Below are positions 2,582 to 49,346 of a stretch of 64,000 nt of DNA, one piece after another. The DNA comes from a virus. The position numbers were made by a program, and so were the translations under genes. Location of the stretch: positions 1 to 64,000 of IMG/VR virus record IMGVR_UViG_3300049827_000271, one strand, 5' to 3'. Below the pieces are notes generated by a model, which saw nothing but the letters and a program-made list of their open reading frames with translations, ran no database searches and was not told the origin of the DNA. Positions within the stretch are counted from its first letter, which is position 1; the number at the start of each line of letters is the position of its first letter.

Positions 2582-2606
2582 CCACCAACAAAAACACAAA
2601 ACGAAA

Positions 2607-4474: not shown

Positions 4475-4475
4475 A

Positions 4476-4494
4476 AAATCTCACGGTGAGATTT
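4476..4494. repeat. Palindrome family A, copy 4
   Basis: Same 19-bp palindrome with central G, starting two bases after a TGA stop and ending 14 bases before the ATG at 4509, with the ribosome site GGAAG at 4501 between. As at copy 2 it fills most of the short gap between two co-directional genes. Confidence 0.75.
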
Positions 4495-4508
4495 CTGAAA
4501 GGAAGACT

Positions 4509-7526: not shown

Positions 7527-8456
7527 ATGAAAGAAAAAATAGTAACTACACAACTTGAACTTGAATACGCTTGCATAGGGGGATTCGTCGCCGTAGTCAA
7601 GGTCGGATCATTCACGGCTTACGGCTCCTCGCAAGTCAGGGCTTACGGCTCCTCGCAAGTCACGGCTTGCGGCTCCTCGCAAGTCACGGCTTACGACTCC
7701 TCGCAAGTCACGGCTTGCGACTCCTCGCAAGTCAGGGCTTGCGACTCCTCGCAAGTCATGGCTTACAACTCCTCGCAAGTCACGGCTTGCAACTCCTCGC
7801 AAGTCAGGGCTTACGGCTCCTCGCAAGTCAGGGCTTACGGCTCCTCGCAAGTCACGGCTTGCGACTCCTCGCAAGTCAGGGCTTACAACTCCTCGCAAGT
7901 CAGGGCTTACAACTCCTCGCAAGTCAGGGCTTACGGCTCCTCGCAAGTCACGGCTTGCGGCTCCTCGCAAGTCAGGGCTTACGACTCCTCGCAAGTCAGG
8001 GCTTCAAAGTGGGTGGCCGTCTCGAAACACGGAAACTCCTGCAAGGTTGTCGGGGGCCATGTCATCAAGATCATCAATCCGGTAACGCTTGCGCAGTGGA
8101 TCGCGTTCCACGGGGTTAAGGTAAAGAACGGGGTCGCCATCGTGTTCAAAGGAGTGTCCTCTGAGTTCAAATCGAACTTCAACCAACTCGATTACACGCC
8201 GGGCACAACTCCAAAGGCTCCAGACTGGGACAATGGAAAGGCTGAATGCGGTGGGGGGTTGCACTTCAGCCCTTACCCTATCGCCACGCTCAAGACTAAT
8301 TTTAATGCCAAGAAATTCGTGGCCTGTCCAGTGCGAGTAAAAGATATGCGCCGGCCAAAAGCAGACGACGAATACCCGGAAAAGATTAAGGCGTCTGGTT
8401 GCTGCGCCCCTGTGTGGGAGTGCGACATCAATGGTAATCCTATCAAAAAATCCTGA
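7527..8456 (+). CDS. Octapeptide beta-helix-like repeat protein with DUF7666-like C-terminus
   Basis: 309 residues. Residues 31-158 are 16 exact tandem octapeptides of consensus A(Y/C)(G/D/N)SSQV(R/T/M), the spacing expected of a regular solenoid or beta-helix. The C-terminal part has CGGGLHFSPYP, FVACPVRVKD and GCCAPVWECD, which I associate with an uncharacterised family (DUF7666-type) found with such repeats in phages and bacteria. Probably cytoplasmic, as no signal peptide is seen. Only three codon positions vary between repeats, all amino-acid-changing. Function unknown; surface display, adhesion or a scaffold are guesses. Confidence 0.8.
   Translation: MKEKIVTTQLELEYACIGGFVAVVKVGSFTAYGSSQVRAYGSSQVTACGSSQVTAYDSSQVTACDSSQVRACDSSQVMAYNSSQVTACNSSQVRAYGSSQVRAYGSSQVTACDSSQVRAYNSSQVRAYNSSQVRAYGSSQVTACGSSQVRAYDSSQVRASKWVAVSKHGNSCKVVGGHVIKIINPVTLAQWIAFHGVKVKNGVAIVFKGVSSEFKSNFNQLDYTPGTTPKAPDWDNGKAECGGGLHFSPYPIATLKTNFNAKKFVACPVRVKDMRRPKADDEYPEKIKASGCCAPVWECDINGNPIKKS
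7617..8000 (+). repeat. 16 tandem 24-bp repeats
   Basis: Units of 24 bp (GCTTACGGCTCCTCGCAAGT plus four bases) run without interruption from 7617 to 8000. Variation is confined to TAC/TGC, GGC/GAC/AAC and AGG/ACG/ATG codons; the other bases look identical in all units. All three plus-strand frames and one minus frame stay open across the array, which produces false ORFs. Confidence 0.9.
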
Positions 8457-27159: not shown

Positions 27160-29277
27160 TCACTGCCTGCGAGCCAGCAGCGTTGCTCCAGACACCATAC
27201 ACGATCCACCGAGGGCTGGCAACAAATTGGATTTCAGGTCCGACTGGTTGGAGAGCCTTCCGATCACCAGTTCAAAGTAGAGGTAGCGGCCCGAGGCGTA
27301 GAGTTCCCACTGGGTCGCGCTGATATTTGGACTCAGGTTGCGCGCCATGTACTCGGCCCCGCGCATGAGTTGCGGGCACTTCAGGTACTTGCGCTGCTCC
27401 CTCTGCCAGACGACCGCGCAGGCATCGGCCTCCAGCGGATTGACCGGAACGCCGTGTCCACCGATCTGCATGGCCGGGTCAACCGGGGAGTATGACTGTC
27501 CCACCCGCAGGCTGACCACGCACGGATCAATCTGGGCCTCCGGTAGCTGGTCCAGGATAAATCCGTGCAAGATGGTCTGCGTGTCCGCAAACGAGATCGG
27601 GCCGCTGGCCATGATCGAGTAGTAGCCGCGTGATTCAAAGTGGCCTACGAACGCGGTATAGTTTCCATCGCCATCCAGATCATCCGCCGTCCGCTCGGTT
27701 AGGAAGTTGGTGCAGGAATCGTACGCATACACGTCGTCAATCTGCTTCAGGCACCAGTCTTCGGCATGTGCGAAAATGAACAACTGCTTCTCGTTGCACG
27801 ACCCGCACAGGTCGTCCGTCCGCAGGTTCATCCGGGAGGCGGCTGATCCAATGTCCGGCTCCACCTGAGTCCAGTCCTCCGTCTCCAAGCCATCAATGGT
27901 CACTGTGTCTGCCGTCAGGAACACGGAGGGCGGATTGTCCGTGCATCCGCCACACCGGAAGAGCGCCTCCTTCTGCATGGACTCCTTCAAATCGTTGGTG
28001 GAGCAAATGCAGTTTCCCAGCAGCCAGTCGCGGAAGGTGGAGCGCGGGTCGCGCCGAAAAATCCCGTAACAGGATGCGGCGAAGTCACGCTCGTACACGT
28101 TCCGGTGAACCATGTCGAAGACCAATGTGCGGCTCGGCTGGCTGTGGCCAATCTCCGTCCATGACAGATAGATTTCCTTCGTCTCCGGGTGGTAGCCGGC
28201 GACGTGCGGCTCGCACTGCTCGGTGTCAATGCTGTCGAAGATCATCTTGCTCGCCAGGTGCATCCACTCCTCGCGCCGTGGGATCATGTCGTAAAACGGA
28301 TTCAGCGAGTAGATGCCATCGCGGGAGGCCCACACCAATTCCTCACCCGTGGATACCAAGGTGTTTGGATAGGCCAGGCAGCGGTCCCCCTTCGTCGATT
28401 CATAGACGATGGCGAACTCGATGGGCTGGTCCGCGTTCCCGGTCGCAGTCCCCCTCCAGATGCGCTGGTTGGTATAGACCACGAGCGCCTCACCAAAGGT
28501 GATCAGGCGGATGACCCGCTCGTAACTGTTGAGCATTTGTTCATCGGCCAGTGACGCCCCGGTCGTCGAGTCGATCTGGGCCGGGTCAAACTGGGTGGGC
28601 GCAAACCTGCCGCTCCAAACGATGGCGTTCTGCGTGTAAGCCCCTCCAATCGTGATCCCGCCCAATATGATGATGTCCTTGAACGCGCAGATGGTCTGGG
28701 CTTTCTCCAAGTCGATGGCATCCAAGTCCGGGATGGGCTTGAGCGCAATCCCGGTCGCTGGATCAATCGGGTCGTCCAACGTGTAGGACATGGGTTTGTC
28801 CACCCCGTTGGTGAAGACGATGGTGTCCAGCACTTGGGCGCACTGCCAGCGCACATCCAATCCAAATGCGTCCGTGACACCCATGCCATCGGCGAGCACG
28901 CGCCAAGCCCCGGTGGACTCATTGAGTTGGTAGATGCGCGACTTGGTGCCGACAATCAGGTAACGGCTTCCGCTTGTGCTCACCGCCTCGTAGATCAGGG
29001 TTATCGGTTCCCGAACACTCCCCGCCTGGCACAGCGGAAGAAGCTGATCATGCAGGTCTTGGTCATTGTAGTCCGCGTCGGCCCCGCCTTGGCAGTCGTA
29101 GCCGTATTCTCCGTAGAGCAGCCGGCGGTATCCGCGTGCCCGGCGCAGCTTGTTCGTATCCGGTGTCCAGAAGTTCAGGCGGCGGCGCCAAGAGCCAAAG
29201 GCCAGCAGGTCCGGTGGGGTCCGGACATCCAGCGGCCCGGTCCAAGGCTTGAGCGGAATGGGTTTGCGCAGGCTCAT
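27160..29277 (-). CDS. Putative tail nozzle / propeller-like protein
   Basis: 705 residues. Central region shows repeating beta patterns such as YLIVGTKSRIYQLNES, VLDTIVFTNGVDKPM, ALVVYTNQRIWRG and ELVWASRDGIYSLN, consistent with a beta-propeller, as in the nozzle (T7 gp12-like) or tail-hub stabilising proteins of podoviruses. Residues 400-500 contain several Cys pairs (CGGCTDN, CGSCNEK) that may bind metal. No signal peptide. It lies between fibronectin-like proteins and the internal virion proteins. Function is inferred from fold pattern and position. Confidence 0.6.
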   Translation of the reverse strand: MSLRKPIPLKPWTGPLDVRTPPDLLAFGSWRRRLNFWTPDTNKLRRARGYRRLLYGEYGYDCQGGADADYNDQDLHDQLLPLCQAGSVREPITLIYEAVSTSGSRYLIVGTKSRIYQLNESTGAWRVLADGMGVTDAFGLDVRWQCAQVLDTIVFTNGVDKPMSYTLDDPIDPATGIALKPIPDLDAIDLEKAQTICAFKDIIILGGITIGGAYTQNAIVWSGRFAPTQFDPAQIDSTTGASLADEQMLNSYERVIRLITFGEALVVYTNQRIWRGTATGNADQPIEFAIVYESTKGDRCLAYPNTLVSTGEELVWASRDGIYSLNPFYDMIPRREEWMHLASKMIFDSIDTEQCEPHVAGYHPETKEIYLSWTEIGHSQPSRTLVFDMVHRNVYERDFAASCYGIFRRDPRSTFRDWLLGNCICSTNDLKESMQKEALFRCGGCTDNPPSVFLTADTVTIDGLETEDWTQVEPDIGSAASRMNLRTDDLCGSCNEKQLFIFAHAEDWCLKQIDDVYAYDSCTNFLTERTADDLDGDGNYTAFVGHFESRGYYSIMASGPISFADTQTILHGFILDQLPEAQIDPCVVSLRVGQSYSPVDPAMQIGGHGVPVNPLEADACAVVWQREQRKYLKCPQLMRGAEYMARNLSPNISATQWELYASGRYLYFELVIGRLSNQSDLKSNLLPALGGSCMVSGATLLARRQ

Positions 29278-32970: not shown

Positions 32971-33665
32971 GTCAGATCGTAGAATGGACCATCGGGCATA
33001 TCCTCGAATGATGCCCAAGCTGGAGTGTATTGCAGTTCAAAGTTTTGTTCGATCCTGACACAATTTACACCCATGACCGCGCCGATATTTTGCGAGCGAG
33101 ATAGCGCCGGATGAATCTCCACCATCTTGTGCTGCGCGCGGCATTCGTTCAGTCTGTAGGCGTGAACCGTCGGATCGGTTGACCACATCGGACGCGCAAG
33201 CTCAAATCGGCTCTTCCATATCCCAACGCCCCAGCAGGTGTACCATTCTCTTCGACACAGCCCGAAGAGCGAACGCGGCGTGCTCATCCTGCGGTTGTGC
33301 GCGGCGATGGAGAAGACGGACATATCTTCCGCGTATCTGTGACGGCAGTGCTCCATCATTTTGAGCATGTCAATCGCTGGAACCGTGTCGTCCTCAAGGT
33401 GGATGATGAAATCAGATTGCTCAAACCCAGCATCCCAAGCCTGCAATGTATTTGCAGAAATCCCAATCCGTTCCCGGTTGATCTTGACAACCATTTGCTT
33501 GGCGGCGCCGAACTCGGAATAAATCTTCTCTGTCTCTGCGCACCCAGGCTCAACAAAGGCTAACACCGTGTAGTCGGAAATTCCGCGACATTTCGCCAGC
33601 GCATCCAAGACGACCTTGGAATAGAACGGCCTGTTCCATGCGACCATTGTGATCACCCTGTTCAC
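32967..33665 (-). CDS. Glycosyltransferase family 2-like protein
   Basis: 232 residues from a GTG at 33665 that overlaps the stop of the preceding gene. GT-A-like pattern: VITMVAWNRPFYSKVVLDAL at the N-terminus, a middle INRERIGISANTLQAWDAGF and FIIHLEDDTVPA, where EDD stands in the place of the DxD metal/nucleotide-sugar motif. CWGVGIWKSR matches the acceptor region. Likely transfers a sugar to a cell-envelope or virion glycan. Part of the four-gene coupled set 32485-38217. Confidence 0.65.
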   Translation of the reverse strand: MNRVITMVAWNRPFYSKVVLDALAKCRGISDYTVLAFVEPGCAETEKIYSEFGAAKQMVVKINRERIGISANTLQAWDAGFEQSDFIIHLEDDTVPAIDMLKMMEHCRHRYAEDMSVFSIAAHNRRMSTPRSLFGLCRREWYTCWGVGIWKSRFELARPMWSTDPTVHAYRLNECRAQHKMVEIHPALSRSQNIGAVMGVNCVRIEQNFELQYTPAWASFEDMPDGPFYDLT

Positions 33666-35551
33666 GCGATGGCCTCCTTCACAAATTCCAGAACCTTTTC
33701 CGAATCCTCTGGGTCGTGGACGTGCAGCGCGTTTGGCCTCGGGTAGAAGCAGTGCGTCCTGCGCCACCCCTCGACAACCGTTGGGTGCATGAGTCCGTGC
33801 GCTATCGAGAGCGGGAATGACTCATTGCCAATGAACAATTTCGATCCACGAATCAGTTCAGCCAAGTCGAGGAAATTGTCCACCGCGCAATAATCCACAT
33901 ATCCGTACTGGGATTTGAATGCTGCGTGCTCTTCCGGAAGCCCGACAAACACCATATCGCATCCAAAGCGTGACACGAGCGAGCGCCAATCCAATTTCGG
34001 TGGGGTGTCGGTATAGCGGAGCGTTCGGTTGATCACGATGGGCAATGGATACGGCTTGGCTTTCGTTACCCTCAGCCACGGATTGACGTTCAAATCCTTT
34101 GGAACGTCTCCACCGAAGTACTCCCAGTAATACTCCGATAGATTATGAGGAGGCCACCTGTGGCCGCGCCGGTCCCTGATCTGGTGAAGCCAGTCCCACG
34201 CATGATCGTTAAAGATGTGGCGAAAGCGGTTGAGGTTAAACGCTTCATCGGGCGCCCTGTCTGCGTACTCGCATCCCGTGATATACGGCTGATCGCGCAG
34301 TAGTGGAATCAGCATCTCGGCCCGCTGGCGCGTCATCCTTTCGCGGACCACCGAGTTCGAGTGGGCCCCATTGCCGAAATCCGGCGATAGAACAAGCCCG
34401 CCTCCGCCTCGCGCGCGAATAAACGGAAGAGAGTAAATAATATCTCCAAGATCGCCGCTGTGCAGGAATGTGATCTCTTTCGGATGTGACGCAATGATCT
34501 CGACCTGATCAGCAGTCTTTCCGATGGCTCCGAATTCCTCCAGCACCTCTATTAGCTTGCGACCGTGGTTCTCCCATGTCAGATGCTTGACCGACTCCGA
34601 TGCCAACAGACCGAGCTTGGCCGCTTCAGGTCTGTCCTCATACACGGATCGCATCGCCTGCACGATGGATTCCGAATTCGGACACGCCCAATGCCCAAGC
34701 CCTCGGTAGTTTGCATCCGACTTTACCAGCTTAAAGTCGATCTGGTATCCTGCTCCAGAATTGAAAAATTCAGAGACGCCTCCAAAATTCACACTGATAA
34801 CCGGCCTTCCAACCGCCATCGCCTGGTGTTGCATCAGCCCCCATCCCTCAGACATTGAGGCGCTCGCAAAGCAGGTTAATCCAGAATACCAATCGGCCAT
34901 AGCGTCATCGCTTAGATACGACTGGATAACCTTGATCCTTGGATCGGAGAAGCGATCCACACGGCAATCAGGAAAGCACTTCACCCGCAGTTCCACGTCC
35001 GTCTCGCGCGGGAACGCGCGCTGAAAACAGGAGACAACCTCATTGATCCCCTTGCGAGGACCACCGTGAGAAATCCGTCCAGCAGTTCCAAACACACATT
35101 TTCCATCCATCTGCATTGGCTGAAAGTGATACTTCGATTTATCTACGCCCAATGGAACAATCCTGATCGGAGCCGTGACCCCGCAGGCTGAGAAACAACT
35201 GGCGTTCCACGCGCACGGCACGATAACAACCTCGGCTTTGTTCAACATCTGCACCGCTCCAGGCGGAAGCTGTGTGGACTCCCACATGGTAAAGTACGCA
35301 GTCTTCTTTCCTGGAGTCGGACAAAACAGCGGAGGATGAAGGAGCAATTCCCACTCCTCCGGCTGTGGTCCAGTCACAAACTTAGCCGCGATGTCAGCAG
35401 GAATTTTTGACCCAAACGGTTCCGACTTTGAGACAGGCCGAACGGACACAAAAACACCGGCTAGTCTCTGGAGGTCGCGTATGATCTGGATCGCAAGCTG
35501 CCCGTAGCCGGTGAAGGAGTTTATGGCCCCGATGAAGGTGATGCGTTTCAT
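33662..35551 (-). CDS. Two-domain glycosyltransferase (GT4-like plus GT9-like)
   Basis: 629 residues. N-terminal GT-B domain (1 to about 350): INSFTGYGQLAIQIIRDL, VIVPCAWNASCF, PLGVDKSKYHF and FASASMSEGWGLMQHQAMA, the GT4 site in which the second Glu of EX7E is Gln. C-terminal domain (about 365-629): FLHSGDLGDIIYSLPF near its start and LFIGNESFPLSIAHGL, the pattern of heptosyltransferase-type GT9 enzymes. Cytoplasmic. A dual enzyme of this kind probably adds two sugars to a surface polymer. Whether it glycosylates the virion or the host envelope cannot be told. Confidence 0.75.
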   Translation of the reverse strand: MKRITFIGAINSFTGYGQLAIQIIRDLQRLAGVFVSVRPVSKSEPFGSKIPADIAAKFVTGPQPEEWELLLHPPLFCPTPGKKTAYFTMWESTQLPPGAVQMLNKAEVVIVPCAWNASCFSACGVTAPIRIVPLGVDKSKYHFQPMQMDGKCVFGTAGRISHGGPRKGINEVVSCFQRAFPRETDVELRVKCFPDCRVDRFSDPRIKVIQSYLSDDAMADWYSGLTCFASASMSEGWGLMQHQAMAVGRPVISVNFGGVSEFFNSGAGYQIDFKLVKSDANYRGLGHWACPNSESIVQAMRSVYEDRPEAAKLGLLASESVKHLTWENHGRKLIEVLEEFGAIGKTADQVEIIASHPKEITFLHSGDLGDIIYSLPFIRARGGGGLVLSPDFGNGAHSNSVVRERMTRQRAEMLIPLLRDQPYITGCEYADRAPDEAFNLNRFRHIFNDHAWDWLHQIRDRRGHRWPPHNLSEYYWEYFGGDVPKDLNVNPWLRVTKAKPYPLPIVINRTLRYTDTPPKLDWRSLVSRFGCDMVFVGLPEEHAAFKSQYGYVDYCAVDNFLDLAELIRGSKLFIGNESFPLSIAHGLMHPTVVEGWRRTHCFYPRPNALHVHDPEDSEKVLEFVKEAIA

Positions 35552-38217
35552 CTCTGGATCATGTTCGAGTACTCCGACTCTACGCCATTGGAATCAACGC
35601 TGGTCGCCACGAACTGCATGGGTAGGAGCGGGATGGCCGCTGCGCTGACCGTCTGGCCGTTCGGGTCATCGGTCTGCGCGATGTCCGTCACGTAGAGCGT
35701 CCAGGAGTAGCCTTGGCTTCGTCTCCAATACAGGTTGTAGTGGTGAATGTTGTTCACCCGAGAGATATGAATGAGCGTCCGGTCGTTGGTGACGCTCTCC
35801 CTTGAAATCGACGGTGGCAATGCTGGGCCGTTTCCGCCTCCGCCAACCACCACAACTCCGCCCCCTTCGATGTCCTGAATGATCGGCGACGGATCAGGGC
35901 GCTGCTCTGGTGGAGGCGTGTTCAGGCATCCATCTCCGTAGCAGTTGTAGTTGTACGGATCATAGCTATATCCATCAAGCCCAGCCTCCATCGGCGGGCC
36001 TTTAGAGATGAGTTGAATTCCGGAGATGCCACAAAACTTTCCGTTCGTCGGTGTCCACCCTTCTTGTGGAATATCCATCAGGGCGATGAACAGTTTTCCA
36101 GTGTATTGCTCTCCGGAAGGTCGCACGCGAATGTTCGGGAAGAAGAGAACGCTGTAATCACGGAGATAAACCTGATACTGATCCCAGTGTTGGATGAATC
36201 CGTATTCCTCAGTGAGCACTGCGACATCCAAATTGTACCCCCACACGTAAACGTCGTAGAGTCCTTCCGGGAGCGGACCTAGCTCCAAGTTCGGCCAGTC
36301 CAGTGGCCCGCCTATTCCTCCCGCGCGCAATCCGTAGATAGCTTGCTTGCAAAGCGTGTCCTCTCCCGCCCTTGTTCCGGATGGCTCGACGGACTCAAAG
36401 CTTCCAGCCTCCGTCTTTATGGAGGCTCCGGAAACCGTATTTCCAGCCACGTCTATGAGCGGCTGGCCGGTTTCAAGCATGGCGGTTTCAAAGTGATTCC
36501 ATTGGTCGCCCGCTTTTCCGCGCACATACCCAAGACCGAAGATGTAGGCTACTCCGGTCTGTGGGAAGTGCGAAATGTCGTTATGGAACTGGATGGATAT
36601 GTTCTTGGTGTCCGCCGGAGGCGGTGGCGGATTGCACACTGAATAATGATAGACGTTGTTCTCGTTGTCGAAGTCATCCGCAAATAGAACCGTTTCCGAA
36701 AGGTCATTGTTCACACGCACCAGTTTCACATCATCCAGCAGATTTCCGTAAGAAACATCTTGGGATGACCCGGTGATTTCCGGACGTGTAAACTGCTCGA
36801 TCCTGATCGGATACTGTCCTCCATCTCCCGTGACGGTCAGTGAGTATTCTGTGAATGACTGGCGAGCGTTGTCCAATTCCACAACGCGCGATGTGAGTTC
36901 GTATTCCGCGCCAAGCCCAAATTTGACAGAGAATCCAGTGCGTTCCGTGCGCTGATTTCCGGAGAGCTTGCAGGATAGCTTATAGGTCTTTCCAGACTCC
37001 AAGGTGAATGAGTCACGGCTGACAATCCGCCCCGCCCAAGGAGCACTGGAGCCAACCAGGTCCAAGTAAAGTCCATGTCCAGGAATCAGATCGAATGTGG
37101 TCCACCCGAGACTGCCCTTGCCAATCAGGTCCACCTTGCCCGTGATATACCAGTTGCTCAACGATTCGATATTGAGCGCGCCATGACTCTCGTACACGTC
37201 TCCGTCTGGCAGGCAGTTGCCAGCGCAGAAGTAACCCTTCAAACCTTGCAGCCACACCTCTACTAGCGCCCCGGTGTCTGGGTAGGCCGACAGCAGGTAT
37301 CCGCCTTCAGAGAATGACAGGAGGGTGGTATAGGCAAGACCGTAAGAACGGATGGCTACGACGATTACCATTACGTTCTTTCCTGCGAGCGCGGCACGAA
37401 GGCTGTCTATAGTCTGGGCGGACAGGCTGGTATCCAAGCCATCGGTCATCAAGATCAGGACATTGATGTCGGCATTTCCTAGTTGCGAAACCGCTGCCGT
37501 TACACCGGCAGCCAAGTTCGTCTTCAACTCGGTGACGAATACACCGGAAAGCTGCGCTTCGATAAACGTCTGCTCTCCCGAAAGATCGCAAACGACCGAG
37601 GCTGTTTCATTGAAGGACGTGATGCCAACCCTATCTCCCTTCCGGTAGTTGACCTTGCCCACGAAGTCCGCGGCCAGCGACTTGGCGTAGATGAACTTGG
37701 ATGACCAGCCTTGGCCAAACGATTGCAGCATCGACTTGGAAGTGTCGATGGCGATCATTATGTCCACCTTCTTGCCCGCGCATTCGTCCGCGTTGGCCAT
37801 CACTTCAAGCTGGGCGTAGCCGATCAGGTTCTGCCAAGCTGCGCTTACTGTAGCTATACCCGGAGATGTTCCGGTGCAGTTTCCGGAAGACGCGCCAATG
37901 ACTCCGATCTGCTGCGAGAGCGCCCAGTGGACGCCAGCAGTAAGAACCGACTCGCTCTGTCCTGTGTGGAGAATCGCGTTGTACTGGACGTTACCAAGAA
38001 TTGGTATCAGCGCAGATGGCGGTCGGACCTCCAGTGTTTGCACGGGAGGCGGAGGATAAACGCACGGCAACTGCCCTCCGAAATTGAGAGCCGCCGGGTC
38101 TTGGCATGTGTTCGGCGGAGGGGGCGTGATTGTTCCACCGCCTCCAGCACCAGAGCCGATGGATGACTTCTGCGGCGAGATCGAGCAGCGGCGCGTATTC
38201 TCTTGGTCCCAGTTCAT
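35548..38217 (-). CDS. Large virion surface protein with von Willebrand A domain
   Basis: 889 residues. After a Gly hinge and the cassette TCQDPAALNFGGQLPCVY (37-54) come a bacterial Ig-like domain (about 60-145) and a VWA domain (about 150-330) with a complete MIDAS metal site: Asp158, Ser160 and Ser162 (DTSKS), Thr233 (LKTNLAAG) and Asp259 (LMTDGLD). Then beta-rich carbohydrate-module-like regions (about 340-510 and 540-740), a Pro/Gly hinge, and a C-terminal FN3-like domain (about 790-889). VWA domains mediate metal-dependent adhesion. Likely a fibre or head/tail appendage. The start overlaps the end of the phosphoesterase gene. Confidence 0.75.
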   Translation of the reverse strand: MNWDQENTRRCSISPQKSSIGSGAGGGGTITPPPPNTCQDPAALNFGGQLPCVYPPPPVQTLEVRPPSALIPILGNVQYNAILHTGQSESVLTAGVHWALSQQIGVIGASSGNCTGTSPGIATVSAAWQNLIGYAQLEVMANADECAGKKVDIMIAIDTSKSMLQSFGQGWSSKFIYAKSLAADFVGKVNYRKGDRVGITSFNETASVVCDLSGEQTFIEAQLSGVFVTELKTNLAAGVTAAVSQLGNADINVLILMTDGLDTSLSAQTIDSLRAALAGKNVMVIVVAIRSYGLAYTTLLSFSEGGYLLSAYPDTGALVEVWLQGLKGYFCAGNCLPDGDVYESHGALNIESLSNWYITGKVDLIGKGSLGWTTFDLIPGHGLYLDLVGSSAPWAGRIVSRDSFTLESGKTYKLSCKLSGNQRTERTGFSVKFGLGAEYELTSRVVELDNARQSFTEYSLTVTGDGGQYPIRIEQFTRPEITGSSQDVSYGNLLDDVKLVRVNNDLSETVLFADDFDNENNVYHYSVCNPPPPPADTKNISIQFHNDISHFPQTGVAYIFGLGYVRGKAGDQWNHFETAMLETGQPLIDVAGNTVSGASIKTEAGSFESVEPSGTRAGEDTLCKQAIYGLRAGGIGGPLDWPNLELGPLPEGLYDVYVWGYNLDVAVLTEEYGFIQHWDQYQVYLRDYSVLFFPNIRVRPSGEQYTGKLFIALMDIPQEGWTPTNGKFCGISGIQLISKGPPMEAGLDGYSYDPYNYNCYGDGCLNTPPPEQRPDPSPIIQDIEGGGVVVVGGGGNGPALPPSISRESVTNDRTLIHISRVNNIHHYNLYWRRSQGYSWTLYVTDIAQTDDPNGQTVSAAAIPLLPMQFVATSVDSNGVESEYSNMIQR

Positions 38218-39800
38218 TTGCTCAGGAGTAGGGTGTCAATCACAGCACCGTCCACTGTCACCGCCTCAAGCTTCAGACGGTCGCTCTCCACGTATCCGCG
38301 AACAAGCCCGTGCGTGCTGTTAAACTTCGCCTTTGTGCCAGAGTGGTTTAAGGCAAGCGTGGTAAGCACGGCCCCGCTCCAGCCTCCAACAATGTGAGGA
38401 AGCCCTCCAACCTCGAACCGCTCATAGGCATGAGTGTGTCCGGATAACACCAAGTCTGCACCCCACGTCTTAAATGGCCACGAGCGCATCCATGTCTGGT
38501 TGAAATTTCCTGAGTGGTTTGTGTATGGCGGAACATGACTGACCACGATCTTCCACTTGGCTTGACTGGTTTGCAGTTGCGGCCTCAACCACCCGGCTTG
38601 CTCTGAATCGTATGTCCAGCCATCCGGCTCGTTTGTCCAAGTGCTGAGGAAGAACCAGTGAATGTCCCCGATCACCACGTCGTAGTAGTGTCGTCCGGCG
38701 GTCACGGGGAAGAACCGATTGAACCCGGCGTACAGATCGCCGTCGTACGTGTCGTGGTTTCCGATGGCCGGCCAAAATCGGTTGGTGGCCGCCGTGGGCG
38801 TGCGCAAGTAGTCGTAGAATGTGTCCACGTCGAACACATCCCGATAGATCGGCATGTAGCTGTGGCGGACATCCCCTCCGTGGACGACGTAGCGAGGATT
38901 GAACGACGCAGCCAGTTTCATCACGTCCGCAGACCAAGTGGTGCCAGCCTCTGTTGGTCCTGTGTCGCTGACGAAAACGAAATCCGCATCCGGGGACACT
39001 GCGGCATCCGCGTCGTAGCACGGGCTTCCCGTGGAACAACTCTGGCATGAGGCAGGACCGACGTTGACAATCCGGCGCTCCACCAAGTCCGCTTCCTCCT
39101 CGATCATCCCGTCGATGATCAGGTTCTGGCGGTGCTCCTGCCACTTGTTCTCGTGCAACACCAGTTCGTTCGAGTCCGGCTCGAAATGCCGGATGTGCTC
39201 GGTCTTCACATACTCCAAGACCGCTTGGGACAACTCAGGGTCTTCCCAGATCAGGTCGCTGTCAGACCACGCCCGCTTGTACCCGGACCACTCCACGAGC
39301 AGCCGCTCGTTCGAGTTCAGCCTTGGCGCCACGTAGAGCCGCTCATTGTGCAGGGAGAACTTTCCGAATATAGCCCGATGCTGGGTCAGTTTGTTGAACC
39401 GTGAGTCCGACTTGACCAGGCCAATCGGCATGTCCGGCTCGCGCATAGGAAGCTCCCAGCGCTCAAAGAACCGGCGGGAAAACTCACGCAACTCATGGAG
39501 GTCGCGATGGAACTCGTAGTTTACCTCGCAACAGTTGTCCGCCAAGGAGACGATGCGGGAGATGCGTCCGCGCGGCGGATTAAGGATGACGGTCATGCCG
39601 CTGGCGCACTCGAAATAGCAATCGCAGAATGGGATGATGTCCCTGTGCTTCTCGGCCATCTTGGGGACGACCCGCTGAAGCTCAATCAGCGCCCCGACAA
39701 AGAAAAGGTCGTGAGCGCTGATCTGATTCTCGGCCTCGCCGTAGGGAAACAGGATAGCCCGAATCTGGGTGGTGAATTGCGAGTATGGGATCATTGTCAA
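38214..39800 (-). CDS. Structural protein fused to a calcineurin-like phosphoesterase
   Basis: 528 residues. Residues 1 to about 270 resemble an adaptor/stopper-type virion domain (helical, ILFPYGEAENQ, FYERxx-like FFERWELPMREP). Residues about 270-528 are a metallophosphoesterase with all motifs: Asp279 (FVSDTG), GGD 308-310, GNHD 347-350, SH 421-422 and GHTHAYER 454-461, as in purple-acid-phosphatase-type enzymes. A Cys-rich hinge (CQSCSTGSPC) links them. As a virion enzyme it might remove phosphate from envelope polymers or nucleotides. No signal peptide, consistent with assembly into the particle. Confidence 0.8.
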   Translation of the reverse strand: MTMIPYSQFTTQIRAILFPYGEAENQISAHDLFFVGALIELQRVVPKMAEKHRDIIPFCDCYFECASGMTVILNPPRGRISRIVSLADNCCEVNYEFHRDLHELREFSRRFFERWELPMREPDMPIGLVKSDSRFNKLTQHRAIFGKFSLHNERLYVAPRLNSNERLLVEWSGYKRAWSDSDLIWEDPELSQAVLEYVKTEHIRHFEPDSNELVLHENKWQEHRQNLIIDGMIEEEADLVERRIVNVGPASCQSCSTGSPCYDADAAVSPDADFVFVSDTGPTEAGTTWSADVMKLAASFNPRYVVHGGDVRHSYMPIYRDVFDVDTFYDYLRTPTAATNRFWPAIGNHDTYDGDLYAGFNRFFPVTAGRHYYDVVIGDIHWFFLSTWTNEPDGWTYDSEQAGWLRPQLQTSQAKWKIVVSHVPPYTNHSGNFNQTWMRSWPFKTWGADLVLSGHTHAYERFEVGGLPHIVGGWSGAVLTTLALNHSGTKAKFNSTHGLVRGYVESDRLKLEAVTVDGAVIDTLLLSK

Positions 39801-40963: not shown

Positions 40964-42736
40964 TCAAGGGATGACACTGCAAGCTTTCGTGTAATCCACC
41001 GATCCACGCGAGATCGGTTCGATTTCCTGGCCCAGACCCTGGAAGATCAGGCCAGCCTGTGGGGCATTGCACACAGCGGTCCACCCAATGTTAATCAGTT
41101 CGATCCAGCGTTTGCGTCCGCTGATCTGGCACTGGAATTGCGGGTTGACCTGCGCCAGCTTCTCAATGTCGCCAACCATGCGGCTGACCTTCTTCGTGTT
41201 GATGATCCCCATCCGGTTGTACTTCCAGGGGAGAATCCAGAGTTGGCGGCCCGCCGTTTCGATCCCGGCGGAAGTGCGCCGCATGAGAATGTCGTCAAAC
41301 GCATCATGAAAGACGACGCGCAGGGTGACGCCCGGCGGGTACTGGAGCGGGTAGTCCTTGAAGAACACGTTCGGCATGGACGTGTCCTGCTTCGGGCTCA
41401 GGTCCATGAGGGACATGAGCGTGCCGCGCGTCTGGTCCTTCAGCATGTCAATCATGGCCGCGTTCCACGTTGGATACATGGCCTTCGGCATGAGCACCTC
41501 CACCGTGTTCCACGAGGGCATCCCGATGTCCCGGCGATAGCGGGTCAGCATGTAGAGCACGTCGATAAACGCCGCCATGTTGAATTTCTGGCCGGCGATG
41601 TCGATGACGCGACCGCGCGCGTAGTGCTGCCAGTAGATTCCGACCGCATTGGCCTTGCGGCTGACGTACTCAGTCGCTCCGGCGGTGACACTGGAGCCAA
41701 TCACGCCCGACGGATACTTGAACTCAGTCTTCGGGAGATCGCGGTAGAGGCTCAACGTCTGGTTGGAGTCGTAGGGCTGTCCAAAGAAGAACTGCTCGGC
41801 CAGGCGCATCTTGAAGTCCTCCGCGGCCTGCACGCGATAGCGGGCTTCCGGGAGATCGTAGAACTCTTTGTAGAGCGGGTTTCCATCGAGCAATCGGGCT
41901 TGCCAGAGACGGTAGGACTCGCTCACATTGAATGCGTCTTGCGAGAACTGAATCCAGAACGGATCAAGCTGGTTCGAGAGCAGTCCGGGCGGCTGGTAGC
42001 AATAAGGCTCGAACTCGCTGACGTTGTTGACCCCGCGAGTGAGTTCTCCAATGACGGGCGGAGTGAGATTCGGATTGGTCGCCCCCCAGTCGAAGGTGCC
42101 AGCCGGACTCGCGCCCATCGCCGGCTTCAGAACGAGCGTGCCCGCGCTGTACTTGATGACCTGCCATTGCGTGGGGCTGACGATACCGCCATCCGTGACT
42201 GTGACCGCTTGGACGAACATGGGGTTGGACGAGTCGATCAACCACCACGCCTCGTCATTCGGAACTCCTCCAGGACTGGAGATCGTGACCAGCCAGTAGC
42301 CGCCGGCTCCATCGGGTGTTCCGTCCACCAAGCAGCGCCGGCCGCCCGTGATGTTCCACGACTGGTTGTTGATCGGCTCTTCGCGCCGCGCCCAGATGTA
42401 GGGCTTGACCTCGTACTCGCCGCTCATGTTTTCCGGGGCAGAGAGCTTGGCGCTCATGTCGATGGCGTTGTCGGCCAGCAAATCGAAGAGGCCGTATCGC
42501 TTGATCCCCAATGCGTTGATGGTCAGGCGCCACATGAACAGGTCTTTCATGTTCCGCCAGTTGTAGTCGGGGTTGCCGGAGGTGAAGATGTTGGTCAACT
42601 CGTCCGGTTTCGGGTATTCCAAATTGGTCTGCGACATCAGGCCGCTGACATCCACAGAACTGCGGATGGCCGGCGCGCACTGGGCGAAGAACGTGGTGGG
42701 CGAAAATGATGCGACTTTATTTTCTGCGGATGGCAT
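40964..42736 (-). CDS. Major capsid protein (candidate)
   Basis: 590 residues, in the canonical place after portal and scaffold. Rich in beta-strand and Trp/Tyr without low complexity; the C-terminal half contains repeated strand blocks (MPSWNTVEVLMPKAMYP, VTLRVVFHDAFDDILMRR, RQLWILPWKYNRM) as expected of an HK97-type fold with insertions. Longer than typical (300-450), possibly because of an inserted domain around residues 100-250 (YWLVTISSPGG, SAGTLVLKPAMG). A terminator at 42800-42832 lies upstream, so it should have its own promoter, which I could not locate. Confidence 0.7.
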   Translation of the reverse strand: MPSAENKVASFSPTTFFAQCAPAIRSSVDVSGLMSQTNLEYPKPDELTNIFTSGNPDYNWRNMKDLFMWRLTINALGIKRYGLFDLLADNAIDMSAKLSAPENMSGEYEVKPYIWARREEPINNQSWNITGGRRCLVDGTPDGAGGYWLVTISSPGGVPNDEAWWLIDSSNPMFVQAVTVTDGGIVSPTQWQVIKYSAGTLVLKPAMGASPAGTFDWGATNPNLTPPVIGELTRGVNNVSEFEPYCYQPPGLLSNQLDPFWIQFSQDAFNVSESYRLWQARLLDGNPLYKEFYDLPEARYRVQAAEDFKMRLAEQFFFGQPYDSNQTLSLYRDLPKTEFKYPSGVIGSSVTAGATEYVSRKANAVGIYWQHYARGRVIDIAGQKFNMAAFIDVLYMLTRYRRDIGMPSWNTVEVLMPKAMYPTWNAAMIDMLKDQTRGTLMSLMDLSPKQDTSMPNVFFKDYPLQYPPGVTLRVVFHDAFDDILMRRTSAGIETAGRQLWILPWKYNRMGIINTKKVSRMVGDIEKLAQVNPQFQCQISGRKRWIELINIGWTAVCNAPQAGLIFQGLGQEIEPISRGSVDYTKACSVIP

Positions 42737-42885: not shown

Positions 42886-44349
42886 TCAACCATCCCCGTA
42901 AAACGCTCTGGCAAACACATTCATGGCCGAAGCCTCCTTGGCCGGAGCCGGACTTCCCGGCATAACCGCGGCCCCCGTGGAAGGTGAGGATGGCTTAGAG
43001 TCCGCAGCGGGAGCCGCAGCTTGAACCGGAGCCGCAGCCGTCGGCTTTCCTGGGGTGATCCCATGCTTGGCTAAGATTCGTTCTGCCTGCTTTCGAGCTT
43101 GTTCAGCGGCCTTGGCCGCATCACGGCTGATGATATTGGCCGCAGCGTGCTGCACGTATTCGGGGGTCAACGTCCAGTGCTTGGCCTTCTCGGCTCTTGA
43201 CAGCCGGTTGAATTGCGGAAGCGGAACAAACTCTCGCCCCTTGTCGTCCACCCTCAGTTCAGGGGTGGAAGCAATGTCCTGATCCAATGATTTGCAGAAT
43301 GTCTCCACTTCTTTCAGCGCCTCTTCCGACATGTCTGCGCCGGAAAAGGCCATGCGCGTGCTCTTCGTGAAGTTACTGACCCGTCGCACCGCATCCACCA
43401 AAATATCTCCGTCATCCGGGCGGGCTTCCAGATATTGCTCAACCCGTTTCTTGTCCAGTTCCCCGTCAGAATCCAAGATGGCCGCCGCATCCTTGCTACC
43501 AAGTAGATCAGCCGCCACCTCGACAACCTGCACGGCATCTCGTTTGGCCAGCGGAGCGGCCTCCATCGTGGCCAGCCGTCGCTCCAGCGCGAGGTTGCGC
43601 TCGATCTGTTCATCCAGCCTCCGCTGGATAGGAACTGTCTCCCGTTTGAGCTTGGCGACTTCCAAATCTTCATCCGTGAACTCAACGCCCAACGCCTTCC
43701 ACAACCCAGACGCCTCCTCGCCCTCCGGATCAAGTGACTTCTGCTTGATTGTCTCGATCACACGCTTCACCCCGTCCGCTGTTCCCTTCGGGTACTTGCG
43801 CGGGTTTGTAATCTCCAGTACTTGCGCCAGTTCAACCTGCTCGTTTTCCTCCGGAAGAAGCTCCACTTGGATACGTTGTGGTTGCTGCTTGGCGACCGCA
43901 GTGGCCACGGCAGAGGCGGCGGCGGAGGCGGCCACTTCGGCGATCTCCCGCTTATCCTCCGGGGCCATCCCTTCATAGCCCTTCGGGGTCTTCAGCTTCT
44001 TGAAGGCTGGCTTGACCGGCTCTTCCGGCTTCTTCTCCTCCGGCTTCTTCTCCTCCGGCTTCTTCTCCTCCGGCTTCTTCTCCTCCGGCTTCTTCTCCTC
44101 CGGCTTCTTCTCCTCCGGCTTCTTCTCCTCCGGCTTCTTCTCCTCCGGCTTCTTCTCTTCCGGCTTCACTGGCTCTGGAGCCGCGGCGCCCAAGAACGAT
44201 CCAGATAGTCCCGAATCAACTGGGACAGGTGTTTCAGTTCCGCCAGCAGGTGTAGTTTCCGGCGCAGTCGCAGACGGCTTGACCTCCGCTGGCGCTCCGC
44301 CATCGGCAGGCTTTGGGTCAAGGAGCAATTTGAGTGTGTGCATGTTCAT
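42886..44349 (-). CDS. Scaffold-like protein with EEKKP repeats
   Basis: 487 residues, Ala/Pro/Glu/Lys-rich, low complexity in the first 160. Nine tandem EEKKP pentapeptides (about residues 64-108). The middle is charged helix and the C-terminal 90 residues are Ala-rich with a C-terminal VFARAFYGDG. Position between portal and capsid and the helical, charged composition are typical of podovirus scaffolding proteins, which guide head assembly and leave or are cleaved. No protease motif seen. Confidence 0.7.
   Translation of the reverse strand: MNMHTLKLLLDPKPADGGAPAEVKPSATAPETTPAGGTETPVPVDSGLSGSFLGAAAPEPVKPEEKKPEEKKPEEKKPEEKKPEEKKPEEKKPEEKKPEEKKPEEKKPEEPVKPAFKKLKTPKGYEGMAPEDKREIAEVAASAAASAVATAVAKQQPQRIQVELLPEENEQVELAQVLEITNPRKYPKGTADGVKRVIETIKQKSLDPEGEEASGLWKALGVEFTDEDLEVAKLKRETVPIQRRLDEQIERNLALERRLATMEAAPLAKRDAVQVVEVAADLLGSKDAAAILDSDGELDKKRVEQYLEARPDDGDILVDAVRRVSNFTKSTRMAFSGADMSEEALKEVETFCKSLDQDIASTPELRVDDKGREFVPLPQFNRLSRAEKAKHWTLTPEYVQHAAANIISRDAAKAAEQARKQAERILAKHGITPGKPTAAAPVQAAAPAADSKPSSPSTGAAVMPGSPAPAKEASAMNVFARAFYGDG
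44026..44160 (-). repeat. Nine tandem 15-bp repeats (EEKKP)
   Basis: Plus-strand unit CGGCTTCTTCTCCTC repeated nine times without gaps; the last unit has one synonymous change (TCTTC). Prone to slippage, so copy number may vary between relatives. Produces false Leu/Arg-rich ORFs on the other strand. Confidence 0.9.
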
Positions 44350-44630
44350 TGTTGTTCGATTTTGATTTTGTTGTGGTGTGTCTTGGCCCTGAACTCTTTG
44401 AACAAGGCCAGAAATCGTGACAGTTCCAGCGCCCGCTTGTAATCTTCGCTTGACCCCAAAGTCAATTCGTTTTCCGTCATTCCCTCCAGCGCCCCTTGCG
44501 AGAATTGAATCCTAAGATGGTCTATCTCCGCACGCACTGTCTCCAAGAACTGATCCGCGTCACTCGATCTTAGCCAAGAGATAATCCGGCTGCTCCGCGC
44601 GTCCTCCAGGGGTTCTAGTCTTGATGTCAT
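44346..44630 (-). CDS. Small protein between portal and scaffold genes
   Basis: 94 residues; helical (IISWLRSSDADQFLETVRAE, ALELSRFLALFKEFRAK) with a basic C-terminus. ATGA overlap with the portal gene and overlap with the scaffold gene, so it belongs to the head operon. Unknown; may be a head-completion helper. Confidence 0.6.
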   Translation of the reverse strand: MTSRLEPLEDARSSRIISWLRSSDADQFLETVRAEIDHLRIQFSQGALEGMTENELTLGSSEDYKRALELSRFLALFKEFRAKTHHNKIKIEQQ

Positions 44631-47305
44631 TGCGGAGGCATTTGTTCCATAGGCGATGGCGCAGGTGACGGCATGGAGGGCGGCTGGGCCAGCGTTGCGA
44701 TCACCTGCTCCAATTGTCCGATATGCGTGGCCAGCGTCTGCTCGTCCTGCTTGGTTTGGATAAGCGCGTTGGTCACTTGTGTAAGCCGAGCTTGAATCTT
44801 CTGCAAGGCCGGCCCAATCTCTCCGTTGACCGCCTGCATGGACTCCTGCACCGCAACTTGCACGGCTTGAGCCATCATCTGCTGAAGCTGGTCAGATTGC
44901 GGTGGCGGTGCGCCCTGTCCATCTTGTGTCTTGGGAGCTTGCTCTTTGGCATTGGCCTGCTGTTGAAACGCGGCTTCACGCATTTTCGACGGGACAAGCC
45001 CAGCCTGCGCCTCGATCTGTGCTTGAACATCCGGCGGCGCCGTGTCGTAGCGGATTGTCTCGAAGATTTTGAGCGGAGGACGTATCGCCCCTGTCGGCTC
45101 TTCCGGCGGACGCGGGGGCAGGAACTTGTAATCCTTCGGCGCCCCAAGTAGCGGGGCCGCGCGATTGATCAATTCGATCAACTGCTCGCGCGCTCCGGGG
45201 CTTCCGTCATTTATGAACGGGACCGCCAATTGCATGAGTTGGATCATCACGTTCGCCAATTGCTGGCTGACCATACGATTGGCCAGCGTCCGCTCGGACA
45301 CAAAATCATCCACGTCCAGAAGTTCCTTCTTACCCTTGACGCTGTGCCGCTTTCCACCGGCGGGCATGGTCGATCCTTTTCCAACATCGAATCCCAAATC
45401 ATTCAGAACCTTCAGCGCATCCTCGTCGGCGTCCACCACATGGGTAGTGAACTCCGAGTCTCCAAACGCCGCCCAGTAGCGGATGACCCGGCGCTTCAGC
45501 GTGTCCAAAAAGTCGTCGAAAAATCCTCCCGTGTAGGTCAGCCTGGTTGTGCTCTGCTGACCTACTGCTGTCGTCTCAGCGGCGGTTGTAACGCGCGGTG
45601 CGTTGACCCCGAACTCATTGGCGCTCATTCCGAGCACGCGCTCCATCAGGCTCAGGTACGTGTTGAGGGCAACGATAAGCGAAGTGGTGTCTTGGTATCC
45701 GAATGTGATCGGATGGAATATCCGTTGAGGGTCTATTCCGGCCTGTTTGAATTTTCTGGCGCTGAACGGAACCCAGAGCACATGGTTGTACTCGTGAGCC
45801 TCCGCCTTGATATTTTTGATCGCATCCGTGACCCCCTCGGAATCCTTGTCGTACCAAACGATCTTCACCAAGTTCTGCTTCACTGTAAGCCGGTGCTGGC
45901 TCACCAGGTTCTGCACGAAATCCTGGTGGGGCATGGCCAGCAACGCCAAGGACGCTTGTGTGCTGCGGCTCTCGTCCGTGTCCCATCCACAGAACATCAC
46001 CGGACAGTCCGGTAGAGGCTCGGCGAAGGTGATCGCCGAGTCGGAGGCAATGACCAAACGGAACCAGAGCGGACAGTCGTAGTCGCCAAGTTCGTAACGG
46101 CTCGGCACAACCTTGACCGCCATGTCCGCCAAGAACAGTGCGTTATCACGCTGATTGCTCGTGTAAAGCGTGCTCTGAAAAGCCCGGTCCCCGTTTGCCT
46201 CCGCATTATACCAAGCCTCCAACTGGTGTGGCACATTGGCCGTGCATGGATACACCTCTTGGAAGTAATTCCAAGAGACAGTCGGATGAAACCAGCAGGT
46301 TCCGTAGCTGATCCTGTCCTTATTCCAGTACTTCGGATCATCCAGGACCGCTCCGTAACGGTCCACATACCAGTGGGCCGCCCAAGTGCAGCCCGTATCC
46401 GTGTTGAAACTGGAAATCGGGTGAACCAAGTCCCAGCCCATGCGCGACGGGTGTGGGATGAAAAATCGCAACCCCTCCTTCTTCGTCCGCTTCTTTCCGT
46501 CTTCCATGTCCTGCTCGTGGTGCCACGCCTCGCGGATGAATACGAGTTGATTGTTGTACATCGCAGCTTGCAGCAGGGCAGTGCGCGCCGAGGACTTTAA
46601 TCCGTATTGCTGGACCATCCGCTCCAGTAGATTGGTGAGAATCTGGCACTTCAAGTGTGACTCCTCGGTCCAGATCAGCGGATCGCATGGCAGCCAAGGA
46701 ACACGGTCGCGCTCGACAAACAGCTTGGCCACACGAGCGTCCACAATCGCTTTCACCAACGGGATGCGAACCTTCCAGAACGTCTCGTTCTTACGCACCC
46801 GTTGCATCTGCGCGGAGTTGGCTCCAGACGGACTGGTGGGCGTGCTGGGAATCTCGAAGAAATCAGACTCGTTCAATTGCCAGTTCTTAATCCCCTCCAG
46901 CAGCTTGGCCTCATCGTTCAACGAGCCGAACGAGAGTTTGTTCAGCAAGGTCGGAGTGATCGACGAGGTGGCGTCGTACATCACGCTGTCAATGGCCGCG
47001 TAGGTTCGGAATTCCCGCAGGTTGCGCAGTCGAGTTTCCCGCAGGCGCGCGGCCACCATGTCCACAAATGTCTTCTGCGGCCCAGTCAGCTTGCTGACAT
47101 CCTGATCGAAGATTTTTTGAAGGGTCTTGCTGCTGATCCCAATCCGCTTCTCGAATTCGTTGGTCAGCAGCGGCTCCTCTGGCTTGGCTGTCGGAACCTC
47201 GGGCAGCACGGCGGTCGCGGCAGCCGACATGTTGCGTGACTCCGTGGTAACGTGCGAGCCAAGCACGTTGGTATCAATGGCCGCGGCGCTGGCGATGGGC
47301 TTCAC
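44627..47305 (-). CDS. Portal protein (podovirus-type, candidate)
   Basis: 892 residues. Large, mostly helical protein with strand blocks RVRKNETFWKVRIPLVKAIV, LPDCPVMFCGWDTDES, NLVSQHRLTVKQNLVKIVW and HPITFGYQDTTSLIVALNTY; the C-terminal 170 residues are Gln-rich helix (QLQQMMAQAVQVAVQESMQ) that would form the long crown/barrel. It forms the dodecameric DNA gate at one vertex and binds terminase. Size and position (first large gene of the head operon) fit. Read from a GTG at 47305 overlapping the previous TGA; an ATG 25 codons later is an alternative. Confidence 0.75.
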   Translation of the reverse strand: MKPIASAAAIDTNVLGSHVTTESRNMSAAATAVLPEVPTAKPEEPLLTNEFEKRIGISSKTLQKIFDQDVSKLTGPQKTFVDMVAARLRETRLRNLREFRTYAAIDSVMYDATSSITPTLLNKLSFGSLNDEAKLLEGIKNWQLNESDFFEIPSTPTSPSGANSAQMQRVRKNETFWKVRIPLVKAIVDARVAKLFVERDRVPWLPCDPLIWTEESHLKCQILTNLLERMVQQYGLKSSARTALLQAAMYNNQLVFIREAWHHEQDMEDGKKRTKKEGLRFFIPHPSRMGWDLVHPISSFNTDTGCTWAAHWYVDRYGAVLDDPKYWNKDRISYGTCWFHPTVSWNYFQEVYPCTANVPHQLEAWYNAEANGDRAFQSTLYTSNQRDNALFLADMAVKVVPSRYELGDYDCPLWFRLVIASDSAITFAEPLPDCPVMFCGWDTDESRSTQASLALLAMPHQDFVQNLVSQHRLTVKQNLVKIVWYDKDSEGVTDAIKNIKAEAHEYNHVLWVPFSARKFKQAGIDPQRIFHPITFGYQDTTSLIVALNTYLSLMERVLGMSANEFGVNAPRVTTAAETTAVGQQSTTRLTYTGGFFDDFLDTLKRRVIRYWAAFGDSEFTTHVVDADEDALKVLNDLGFDVGKGSTMPAGGKRHSVKGKKELLDVDDFVSERTLANRMVSQQLANVMIQLMQLAVPFINDGSPGAREQLIELINRAAPLLGAPKDYKFLPPRPPEEPTGAIRPPLKIFETIRYDTAPPDVQAQIEAQAGLVPSKMREAAFQQQANAKEQAPKTQDGQGAPPPQSDQLQQMMAQAVQVAVQESMQAVNGEIGPALQKIQARLTQVTNALIQTKQDEQTLATHIGQLEQVIATLAQPPSMPSPAPSPMEQMPPQ

Positions 47306-47789: not shown

Positions 47790-49346
47790 ATGCCATTCGA
47801 CAAACAGGGCCGGCACTATCTGCCGGTATTTGAAAAACAACTGCGACTGATCAATTCCAGGAAGCGGTTTCGACTGGCCAGCGGCCCGCGACTGTGCGGC
47901 AAAACCCTCGGCTGCTGCCATGCGGTGTTGCAACATTGCCGTTCGGTCAAGAACGCACGGTTCTGCATCTTGGGAAATACAGCCAGCCAGAATGCGGACG
48001 GCGGAGCATGGATGGACCTGACAGGCCCAGACGGGGTGATTGAGCAATGGGTTAATGATGGGCTGCTCAAGTGGAAGACCAAGCCGTGCATCAAGTCCGA
48101 CACCAAGAAGTGGCACTGCGAGGTTGAGGGCCCAAATGGAGTGGCCGACATTATTCTCGACAGTCTTCCGGTGGAGCGGGAAGTAAAATCAAGATTCTTC
48201 GGACGCAAGTACACTGGAATCTGGGTCACGCAGATGGATCAAGTATTTACCACACGCGCTCCGTTCGACGTAATAACTGAGTGCCTGCGCGCCGGGCCGG
48301 AGGTGCGTGAGGACCAGTTTCTTTTCCTGGCCGACGTTAATCCTCCAGATGACGGAGTTGATTCATGGTTCTACAAGCTGTGGTTCGACTTTCCAGACTC
48401 TGAAATTCCAAAGGACATCCCTGAGATTCAACGCAAGGCAATGGAGGAATTGAAGACAAATTTGGAGGTCGTCACCTTCAGTATCGACGACAACATTTTC
48501 GTCACCGACGCGCGCAAGCGGGTGCTCTACAGCAATCTCTGCCACGACCAGAACCTGCTCGACCGATTTTACTACGGCAAGTACGTGAGGGCGAGCGCCA
48601 CCGGATTCTTCAAGGAGGTGTGGGTGCCAGCGGTTCACCGGGTTGGCGAAATCGCGGTCACAAAATCACTGGACGAGCGGATGCTCCCAGAAAAGAACTG
48701 CCATCTCCTGATCACCGGAAATGACATTGGGAGCGTCAACCCGGCCATTGTCTTCATCGAGCCGTGGGACATCGGGATCGACGGCGACCAGAAGTGGGCG
48801 TTCAAGGTCTTGGATGAACTGATCATCCAGAAAACACAAACACCGCTATCCGACTTGGTTGAGATGATGATGGACAAGATGGACGCCTTGGAAGAACTGG
48901 TGAGAAAAATGAACAAGGCGGACAAGCTGGAGGGTGCTCCGAAAATCATGTGGCGCCATTTCTCGGATACAAGTTCATTCGACAGGTACGACAACATTGC
49001 CGATACCTTCGAGTGGCGGGAAATTTACCGACTGAGTGAAGGGAGAATTGAGTTCGAGGCGGTGGACAAGTCACATGGGCAGATCAACCGGCATGTCACA
49101 ATGATCAAACGACTACTCTTCCAGAATCGGCTGTTCACCGATGCTCACTGTGAATATGTATTGCGCATGTTCGGCAATCTTGCGCCCAATAAACACGGAA
49201 GGATGACCAATACTGACCCGGACAAGCACGCCTTCGACGCTCTGCGTTACGCCATCGCCGGCTTATGCTATGAGGAGCTTCAGCTTGGAGACATACCAAC
49301 AGTTGGACCCATCACTCAACCGACCGTGCTGACAACATCTCTTTGA
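47790..49346 (+). CDS. terL: Terminase large subunit
   Basis: 518 residues. ATPase: deviant Walker A SGPRLCGKT (31-39), Walker B region GIWVTQMDQ (143-151) with Asp150 but Gln instead of the usual catalytic Glu, and coupling motif FLADVNPPDDG (179-189). RNase-H-like nuclease: Asp312 (GNDIG), Asp393 (FSDTSS) and Asp483 (HAFDALRYAIAGL). Cuts and pumps DNA into the head through the portal. It is transcribed away from the head genes, an unusual arrangement. The last 35 bases overlap the convergent gene at 49312. No small terminase is recognised nearby. Confidence 0.88.
   Translation: MPFDKQGRHYLPVFEKQLRLINSRKRFRLASGPRLCGKTLGCCHAVLQHCRSVKNARFCILGNTASQNADGGAWMDLTGPDGVIEQWVNDGLLKWKTKPCIKSDTKKWHCEVEGPNGVADIILDSLPVEREVKSRFFGRKYTGIWVTQMDQVFTTRAPFDVITECLRAGPEVREDQFLFLADVNPPDDGVDSWFYKLWFDFPDSEIPKDIPEIQRKAMEELKTNLEVVTFSIDDNIFVTDARKRVLYSNLCHDQNLLDRFYYGKYVRASATGFFKEVWVPAVHRVGEIAVTKSLDERMLPEKNCHLLITGNDIGSVNPAIVFIEPWDIGIDGDQKWAFKVLDELIIQKTQTPLSDLVEMMMDKMDALEELVRKMNKADKLEGAPKIMWRHFSDTSSFDRYDNIADTFEWREIYRLSEGRIEFEAVDKSHGQINRHVTMIKRLLFQNRLFTDAHCEYVLRMFGNLAPNKHGRMTNTDPDKHAFDALRYAIAGLCYEELQLGDIPTVGPITQPTVLTTSL

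Follow-up and report, generated by a model that had tools for sequence, protein, structure and literature searches.

Enzymes of phage virions are usually carried by tail fibers, spikes, or lysins, and it is unusual for the neck adaptor to include one. In phage SU10, the adaptor (gp11) forms a dodecamer between the portal and the tail nozzle, and the long tail fibers dock onto it (PMC9509320). Hydrolytic activity has been reported for the adaptors of KP32 and KP34, termed tail tubular protein A, where it resides in the adaptor itself and, in KP32 (gp31), acts on polysaccharide (PMC5440376, PMC5741709). A gene resembling purple acid phosphatases (PAPs) is present in Microbacterium phage Rowlf (gp26), a siphovirus; the available part of that report gives neither an adaptor fusion nor a function for it (PMC12352085). 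The protein considered here, encoded within positions 1 to 64,000 of IMG/VR virus record IMGVR_UViG_3300049827_000271 (the window, i.e., the whole 64,000-nucleotide stretch analyzed), joins an N-terminal domain that is most likely a head-tail adaptor to a C-terminal PAP-like metallophosphoesterase. The fusion itself is well supported by the sequence, and no description of such an architecture was found in the literature, for which open-licence papers were covered. On balance, we favor a reading in which the adaptor of a short-tailed phage bears a C-terminal phosphoesterase on the neck, one that would be catalytic in this phage and is degraded or lost in others.

The full virus record spans 74,403 bases and encodes a terminase, RecT, an exonuclease, and an integrase, which mark the phage as tailed and probably temperate. 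From the letters of 38214..39800, the original prediction had described an open reading frame with a structural-type N-terminal half and a metallophosphoesterase bearing all catalytic motifs. The frame exists, and Pfam and inspection of the motifs bear out its metallophosphoesterase; the strand, which is minus, had been left unstated, and the start requires revision. Counted from a TTG at 39800, the product has 528 amino acids, but the ATG at 39794, giving 526, is the more likely start because a GAGGA Shine-Dalgarno-like stretch lies well spaced about 6 nt 5′ of it and the relatives begin at the equivalent residue. All residue numbers below are nonetheless counted from TTG 39800.

The C-terminal half matches the Pfam family Metallophos (PF00149) over residues 274-459 with an E-value of 1.8e-13, above the family cut-off. 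Its best Foldseek matches in the PDB are PAPs (1qfc, E 2.7e-14), the closest folds being those of the rat, pig, and kidney bean enzymes, while the phosphodiesterases GpdQ and Rv0805 and the Plasmodium GAP50 structure 3tgh are also returned. Like the PAPs, the domain displays DxG, GD, GNHD, H, GHxH, and GHxHxYER motifs, and all five motifs that had been quoted for it (SDTG, GGDVRH, GNHD, SH, and GHTHAYER) are present. The metal ligands and the catalytic histidine (D, D, N, H, H, H plus the GNH histidine) are thus complete, at seven of seven. The domain differs from the PAPs in being part of a fused phage protein known here from sequence, in its identity of only ~15-20%, and in a histidine (H313) at the position of the GDxxY tyrosine, which most intact relatives have. 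Because of this difference, the domain is classed as PAP-like and not counted among the strict PAPs. Since the site is kept in full, it is probably catalytic in this phage.

The N-terminal half has no sequence match to known families, whether as a single-sequence scan of the domain or against PHROGs, PDB sequences, and cultured phages, and its character emerges from predicted structure and gene order. An AlphaFold2 (AF2) model of the fusion protein built from 39 sequences attains a mean predicted local distance difference test (pLDDT) score of 83.6; an earlier model from three sequences (pLDDT 35.5) was discarded. With the retained model, Foldseek returns the SU10 adaptor chains 7z47 A and B (E 1.3e-5 and 1.5e-5) and the KHP30 tail chain 7wmp_m (E about 1e-5), all with a probability of 1.00, and the PDB label of 7z47_A is “Adaptor protein”. 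Matches in BFVD include an ECBP2 protein, homologous to SU10 gp11, and a crAss-like “putative tail tubular protein”. Standalone forms of the domain occur in four related loci (L011, L012, L028, and L030) with 262-307 amino acids, the size of an adaptor, which establishes it as a separable unit.

Gene order points in the same direction. Of 60 related loci, 57 have a capsid-protein homologue upstream of the adaptor gene in the same orientation, and a nozzle-like protein lies downstream in 27 loci, so that the gene occupies the place between capsid and nozzle genes where an adaptor is found. The block as a whole matches the SU10 order terminase-portal-scaffold-major capsid protein-adaptor. On the basis of fold, place after the capsid gene, and standalone size, the most likely identity of the N-terminal half is that of a head-tail adaptor resembling SU10 gp11, T7 gp11, and KP32 gp31 in type, and the predicted structural role between portal and nozzle would be that of SU10 gp11 (PMC9509320). 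SU10 gp11 differs in having no enzyme domain, and its similarity to the window domain is not significant when the two are compared directly as single sequences. The earlier description of this half as virion-like is therefore supported and can be made more specific.

The two domains are connected by a flexible linker containing three cysteines, which had been described as a Cys-rich hinge. The hinge exists, but a special role for it is rejected: residues 241-268 are predicted to be disordered (AF2 pLDDT <50) and the cysteines are not conserved among relatives. Of the earlier interpretation as a whole, the virion-like domain and the phosphoesterase with all its ligands, here of PAP type, stand. 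The linker motif R-x-R..E..DD is common to the standalone protein of L011 and to decayed fusions such as those of L002 and L022, which fits an enzyme domain added beyond the adaptor's own C-terminus.

Relatives of the fusion come from uncultured viruses throughout. Scans of IMG/VR yielded two full-length relatives at ~30% identity and then 9, 25, and 57 loci as the alignments were broadened, for a total of about 50 distinct proteins. The 50,697 phage records searched yielded no full-length relative, and a single scan of bacterial and archaeal genomes yielded no relative at all. A protein from an uncultured Caudovirales phage in UniProt (A0A6J5NEL2, named “uncharacterized”) aligns structurally over nearly all 528 residues (E 1.2e-13), with 14% identity and a global TM-score of only 0.39, and may represent the same architecture without annotation. 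Across the relatives, the adaptor C-terminus carries an intact phosphoesterase, a decayed phosphoesterase, nothing, DUF5977 repeats (L060, L061, L065, L067, L074, L075, and L077), or CHB_HEX_C_1/Fn3_assoc domains (L062, L068, and L071), the latter two at the same C-terminal place.

The catalytic site is distributed unevenly over this family. Among the 29 full-length fused members, 16 (the window protein and 15 relatives) have the complete set of seven catalytic residues; of the others, eight agree with the window protein at none of these positions and five at three or four. Identity to the window protein elsewhere in the domain is about 0.3 for all three groups, at 28-35% for the intact relatives and 29-36% for the eight that match at none, and a full match at ~30% identity has a hypergeometric P of 1.6e-4 to 8e-4 per comparison; conservation of the site is thus beyond chance. 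When the catalytic columns are left out of the tree, the label “intact” or “lost” requires five changes, at least four of which are forced by well-supported branches, although the branches of several rows, including the window protein, are long and their exact places unsure. A complete metal site could not plausibly be regained, and the site has therefore probably been lost several times independently. In the N-domain phylogeny, all four adaptor-only proteins fall inside one clade (support 100/98) with seven members, all catalytically dead, a placement that, with the root of the tree not inferred, is consistent with decay of the phosphoesterase followed by its deletion. The existence of fully dead relatives and of adaptors lacking the domain shows that catalysis is not required of the adaptor family.

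These observations can be assembled into a mechanism. Adaptor subunits, twelve by analogy to SU10, would be seated between the portal and the tail nozzle, with the flexible linker tethering a PAP-type dimetal phosphoesterase to the C-terminus of each. About twelve phosphoesterase domains per virion would then surround the neck outside the capsid. In the window phage, they may hydrolyze phosphate esters of the host envelope, or of the matrix around it, while the phage adsorbs, and an entry role on phosphorylated polymers is plausible. In sister lineages, the domain without its metal ligands would persist with no more than a binding or structural function, as a collar, or be deleted. More tentatively, the adaptor of a large group of uncultured phages might be a display scaffold with interchangeable C-terminal domains, one of them an active dimetal phosphoesterase, arranged as a ring and directed at phosphorylated polymers of the host surface at adsorption, with a natural series of active, dead, and deleted forms.

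Several points weigh against the reading of a neck-borne enzyme. Catalysis is lost in 13 of the 29 full-length fused members, which precludes an enzymatic function for the domain throughout the family. The Foldseek TM-scores against adaptors are low (0.36-0.37 by target, with the aligned part of the query unprinted), such that the adaptor fold is assigned on the Foldseek score and not on a tight superposition. Comparison of profiles with hhalign gives a weak match of the N-terminal domain to SU10-type adaptors (P 0.0097 at a probability of 4%) that is collinear along the C-terminal third; the phosphoesterase domain, used as a control, gives P 0.25. Finally, the embracing loops at the C-terminus of the SU10 adaptor extend into the portal (PMC9509320), which makes the exact position of an extra domain at this end uncertain.

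The losses also raise the question of whether the phosphoesterase is already passive in the window phage, as a binding or structural collar in which the catalytic residues are incidentally present. The eight relatives with none of the seven residues still carry the fold residues (WPF..WGAD, YER, and GG), five others retain three or four of the seven, and the alternative C-termini (DUF5977 and CHB_HEX) are non-enzymatic by annotation and may serve adhesion. A PAP fold acts as an anchor of the invasion machinery in Plasmodium GAP50 (PMC8949495; Foldseek 3tgh), a eukaryotic, membrane-associated protein unrelated to phage that offers a parallel for the decayed relatives. Neutral drift would, however, erase a site without function, and the window protein keeps all seven residues at ~30% identity to the intact members; a passive collar in this particular phage is therefore unlikely, and catalysis is favored.

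It is less probable still that the N-terminal domain is another virion component, such as a different neck protein or one that anchors fibers. The missing family match, the weak profile match, and the low TM-scores would accommodate such an assignment, but structural similarity to tail proteins solved for two phages, among them the SU10 adaptor, together with the SU10-like gene order and the adaptor-sized standalone forms, argues for an adaptor. The head-tail adaptor is not known to be injected into the cell. Action of the phosphoesterase inside the infected cell, for example as counter-defense through cleavage of nucleotide alarm signals or of other phosphoesters of the host, with the fusion to the adaptor incidental, would be in line with the matches to GpdQ and Rv0805 and with a conserved mycobacteriophage phosphoesterase that is reported to evade host immunity (PMC12287305), but is highly improbable because the domain is joined to a structural protein assembled into the neck of the virion and the fusion is kept across many divergent lineages.

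The features of the locus are collected in Table 1.

Table 1. Positions, strands, and supporting evidence for the fusion gene, its parts, and neighboring genes in the window.
Feature	Position	Strand	Evidence or remark
Coding sequence, probable head-tail adaptor + PAP-type metallophosphoesterase	38214..39794	-	526 amino acids from ATG
N-terminal adaptor-like domain, residues 3-240	39081..39794	-	Confident AF2 model, Foldseek, standalone homologues
Flexible Cys-containing linker, residues 241-269	38994..39080	-	Three Cys
PAP-type metallophosphoesterase domain, residues 270-528	38217..38993	-	Pfam, PDB phmmer, Foldseek to PAPs
Motif I, FVSDTG (D279)	38958..38975	-	PAP-like DxG rather than DxH
Motif II, GGDVRH region (D310)	38862..38882	-	His313 at PAP tyrosine position
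Motif III, GNHD (N348, H349)	38751..38762	-	
Motif IV, SH (H422)	38535..38540	-	
Motif V, GHTHAYER (H455, H457)	38418..38441	-	
Virion structural protein, probable tail nozzle	27160..29277	-	phrog_3287, E 3.3e-22; nozzle by place
von Willebrand factor A (VWA) domain protein, 889 amino acids	35548..38217	-	ATGA overlap with adaptor stop
Small protein, 165 amino acids	39828..40325	-	Just upstream of adaptor gene; similar-sized protein there in other loci
Probable major capsid protein	40964..42736	-	Conservation and place; homologues in 72 loci
Probable scaffold	42886..44349	-	Place; PEEKK repeats
Probable portal	44627..47305	-	Place and size; homologues in 63 loci; SU10-like gene order
Terminase large subunit	47790..49346	+	phrog_2, E 3.9e-15

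The stop codon of the fusion gene overlaps the ATG of the following gene, that of the VWA protein, whose relatives come after the adaptor in many other loci. By eye, its DTSKS motif is an intact DxSxS site, and it is possibly an adhesion protein. The probable major capsid protein has no family match, and tblastn finds no match among the 50,697 phage records for it, for the portal-like protein, or for the nozzle-like protein. The PEEKK repeats of the scaffold-like protein are encoded by a 15-base tandem repeat of about 10 copies (44020-44167). In the window, as in nearly all related loci that show a terminase, this gene lies on the strand opposite the portal-capsid-adaptor block, L013 being an exception. 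Within the structural gene block, a 629-amino acid protein on the minus strand (33662-35551) contains a group 1 glycosyltransferase domain and has relatives in several loci (~54% identity over 350 amino acids). In L011, two genes between the capsid gene and the adaptor (2374-4793) appear by eye to be methyltransferase-like and glycosyltransferase-like. Elsewhere in the window, an open reading frame of 3629 amino acids (13301-24190, minus strand) has no Pfam or PHROG match, and a 24-base tandem repeat of 16 copies (7612-8004) gives rise to 8-residue repeats such as SSQVRAYG in a 309-amino acid protein that matches the Pfam ALTTAQ repeat and, weakly, DUF7666.

The novelty of the locus lies in a known kind of protein, the head-tail adaptor, that carries an unusual enzyme domain and presents a natural series of its loss; its description also annotates a structural module for phages without any cultured relative among the records covered. 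The family offers adaptors with an intact site, with a destroyed site, with other C-terminal domains, and with no extra domain, so that the function of a phosphoesterase on the virion, and the transition from a virion enzyme to a passive structural domain, can be tested directly. The same natural series allows a test of whether the virus uses a neck enzyme for cell entry.

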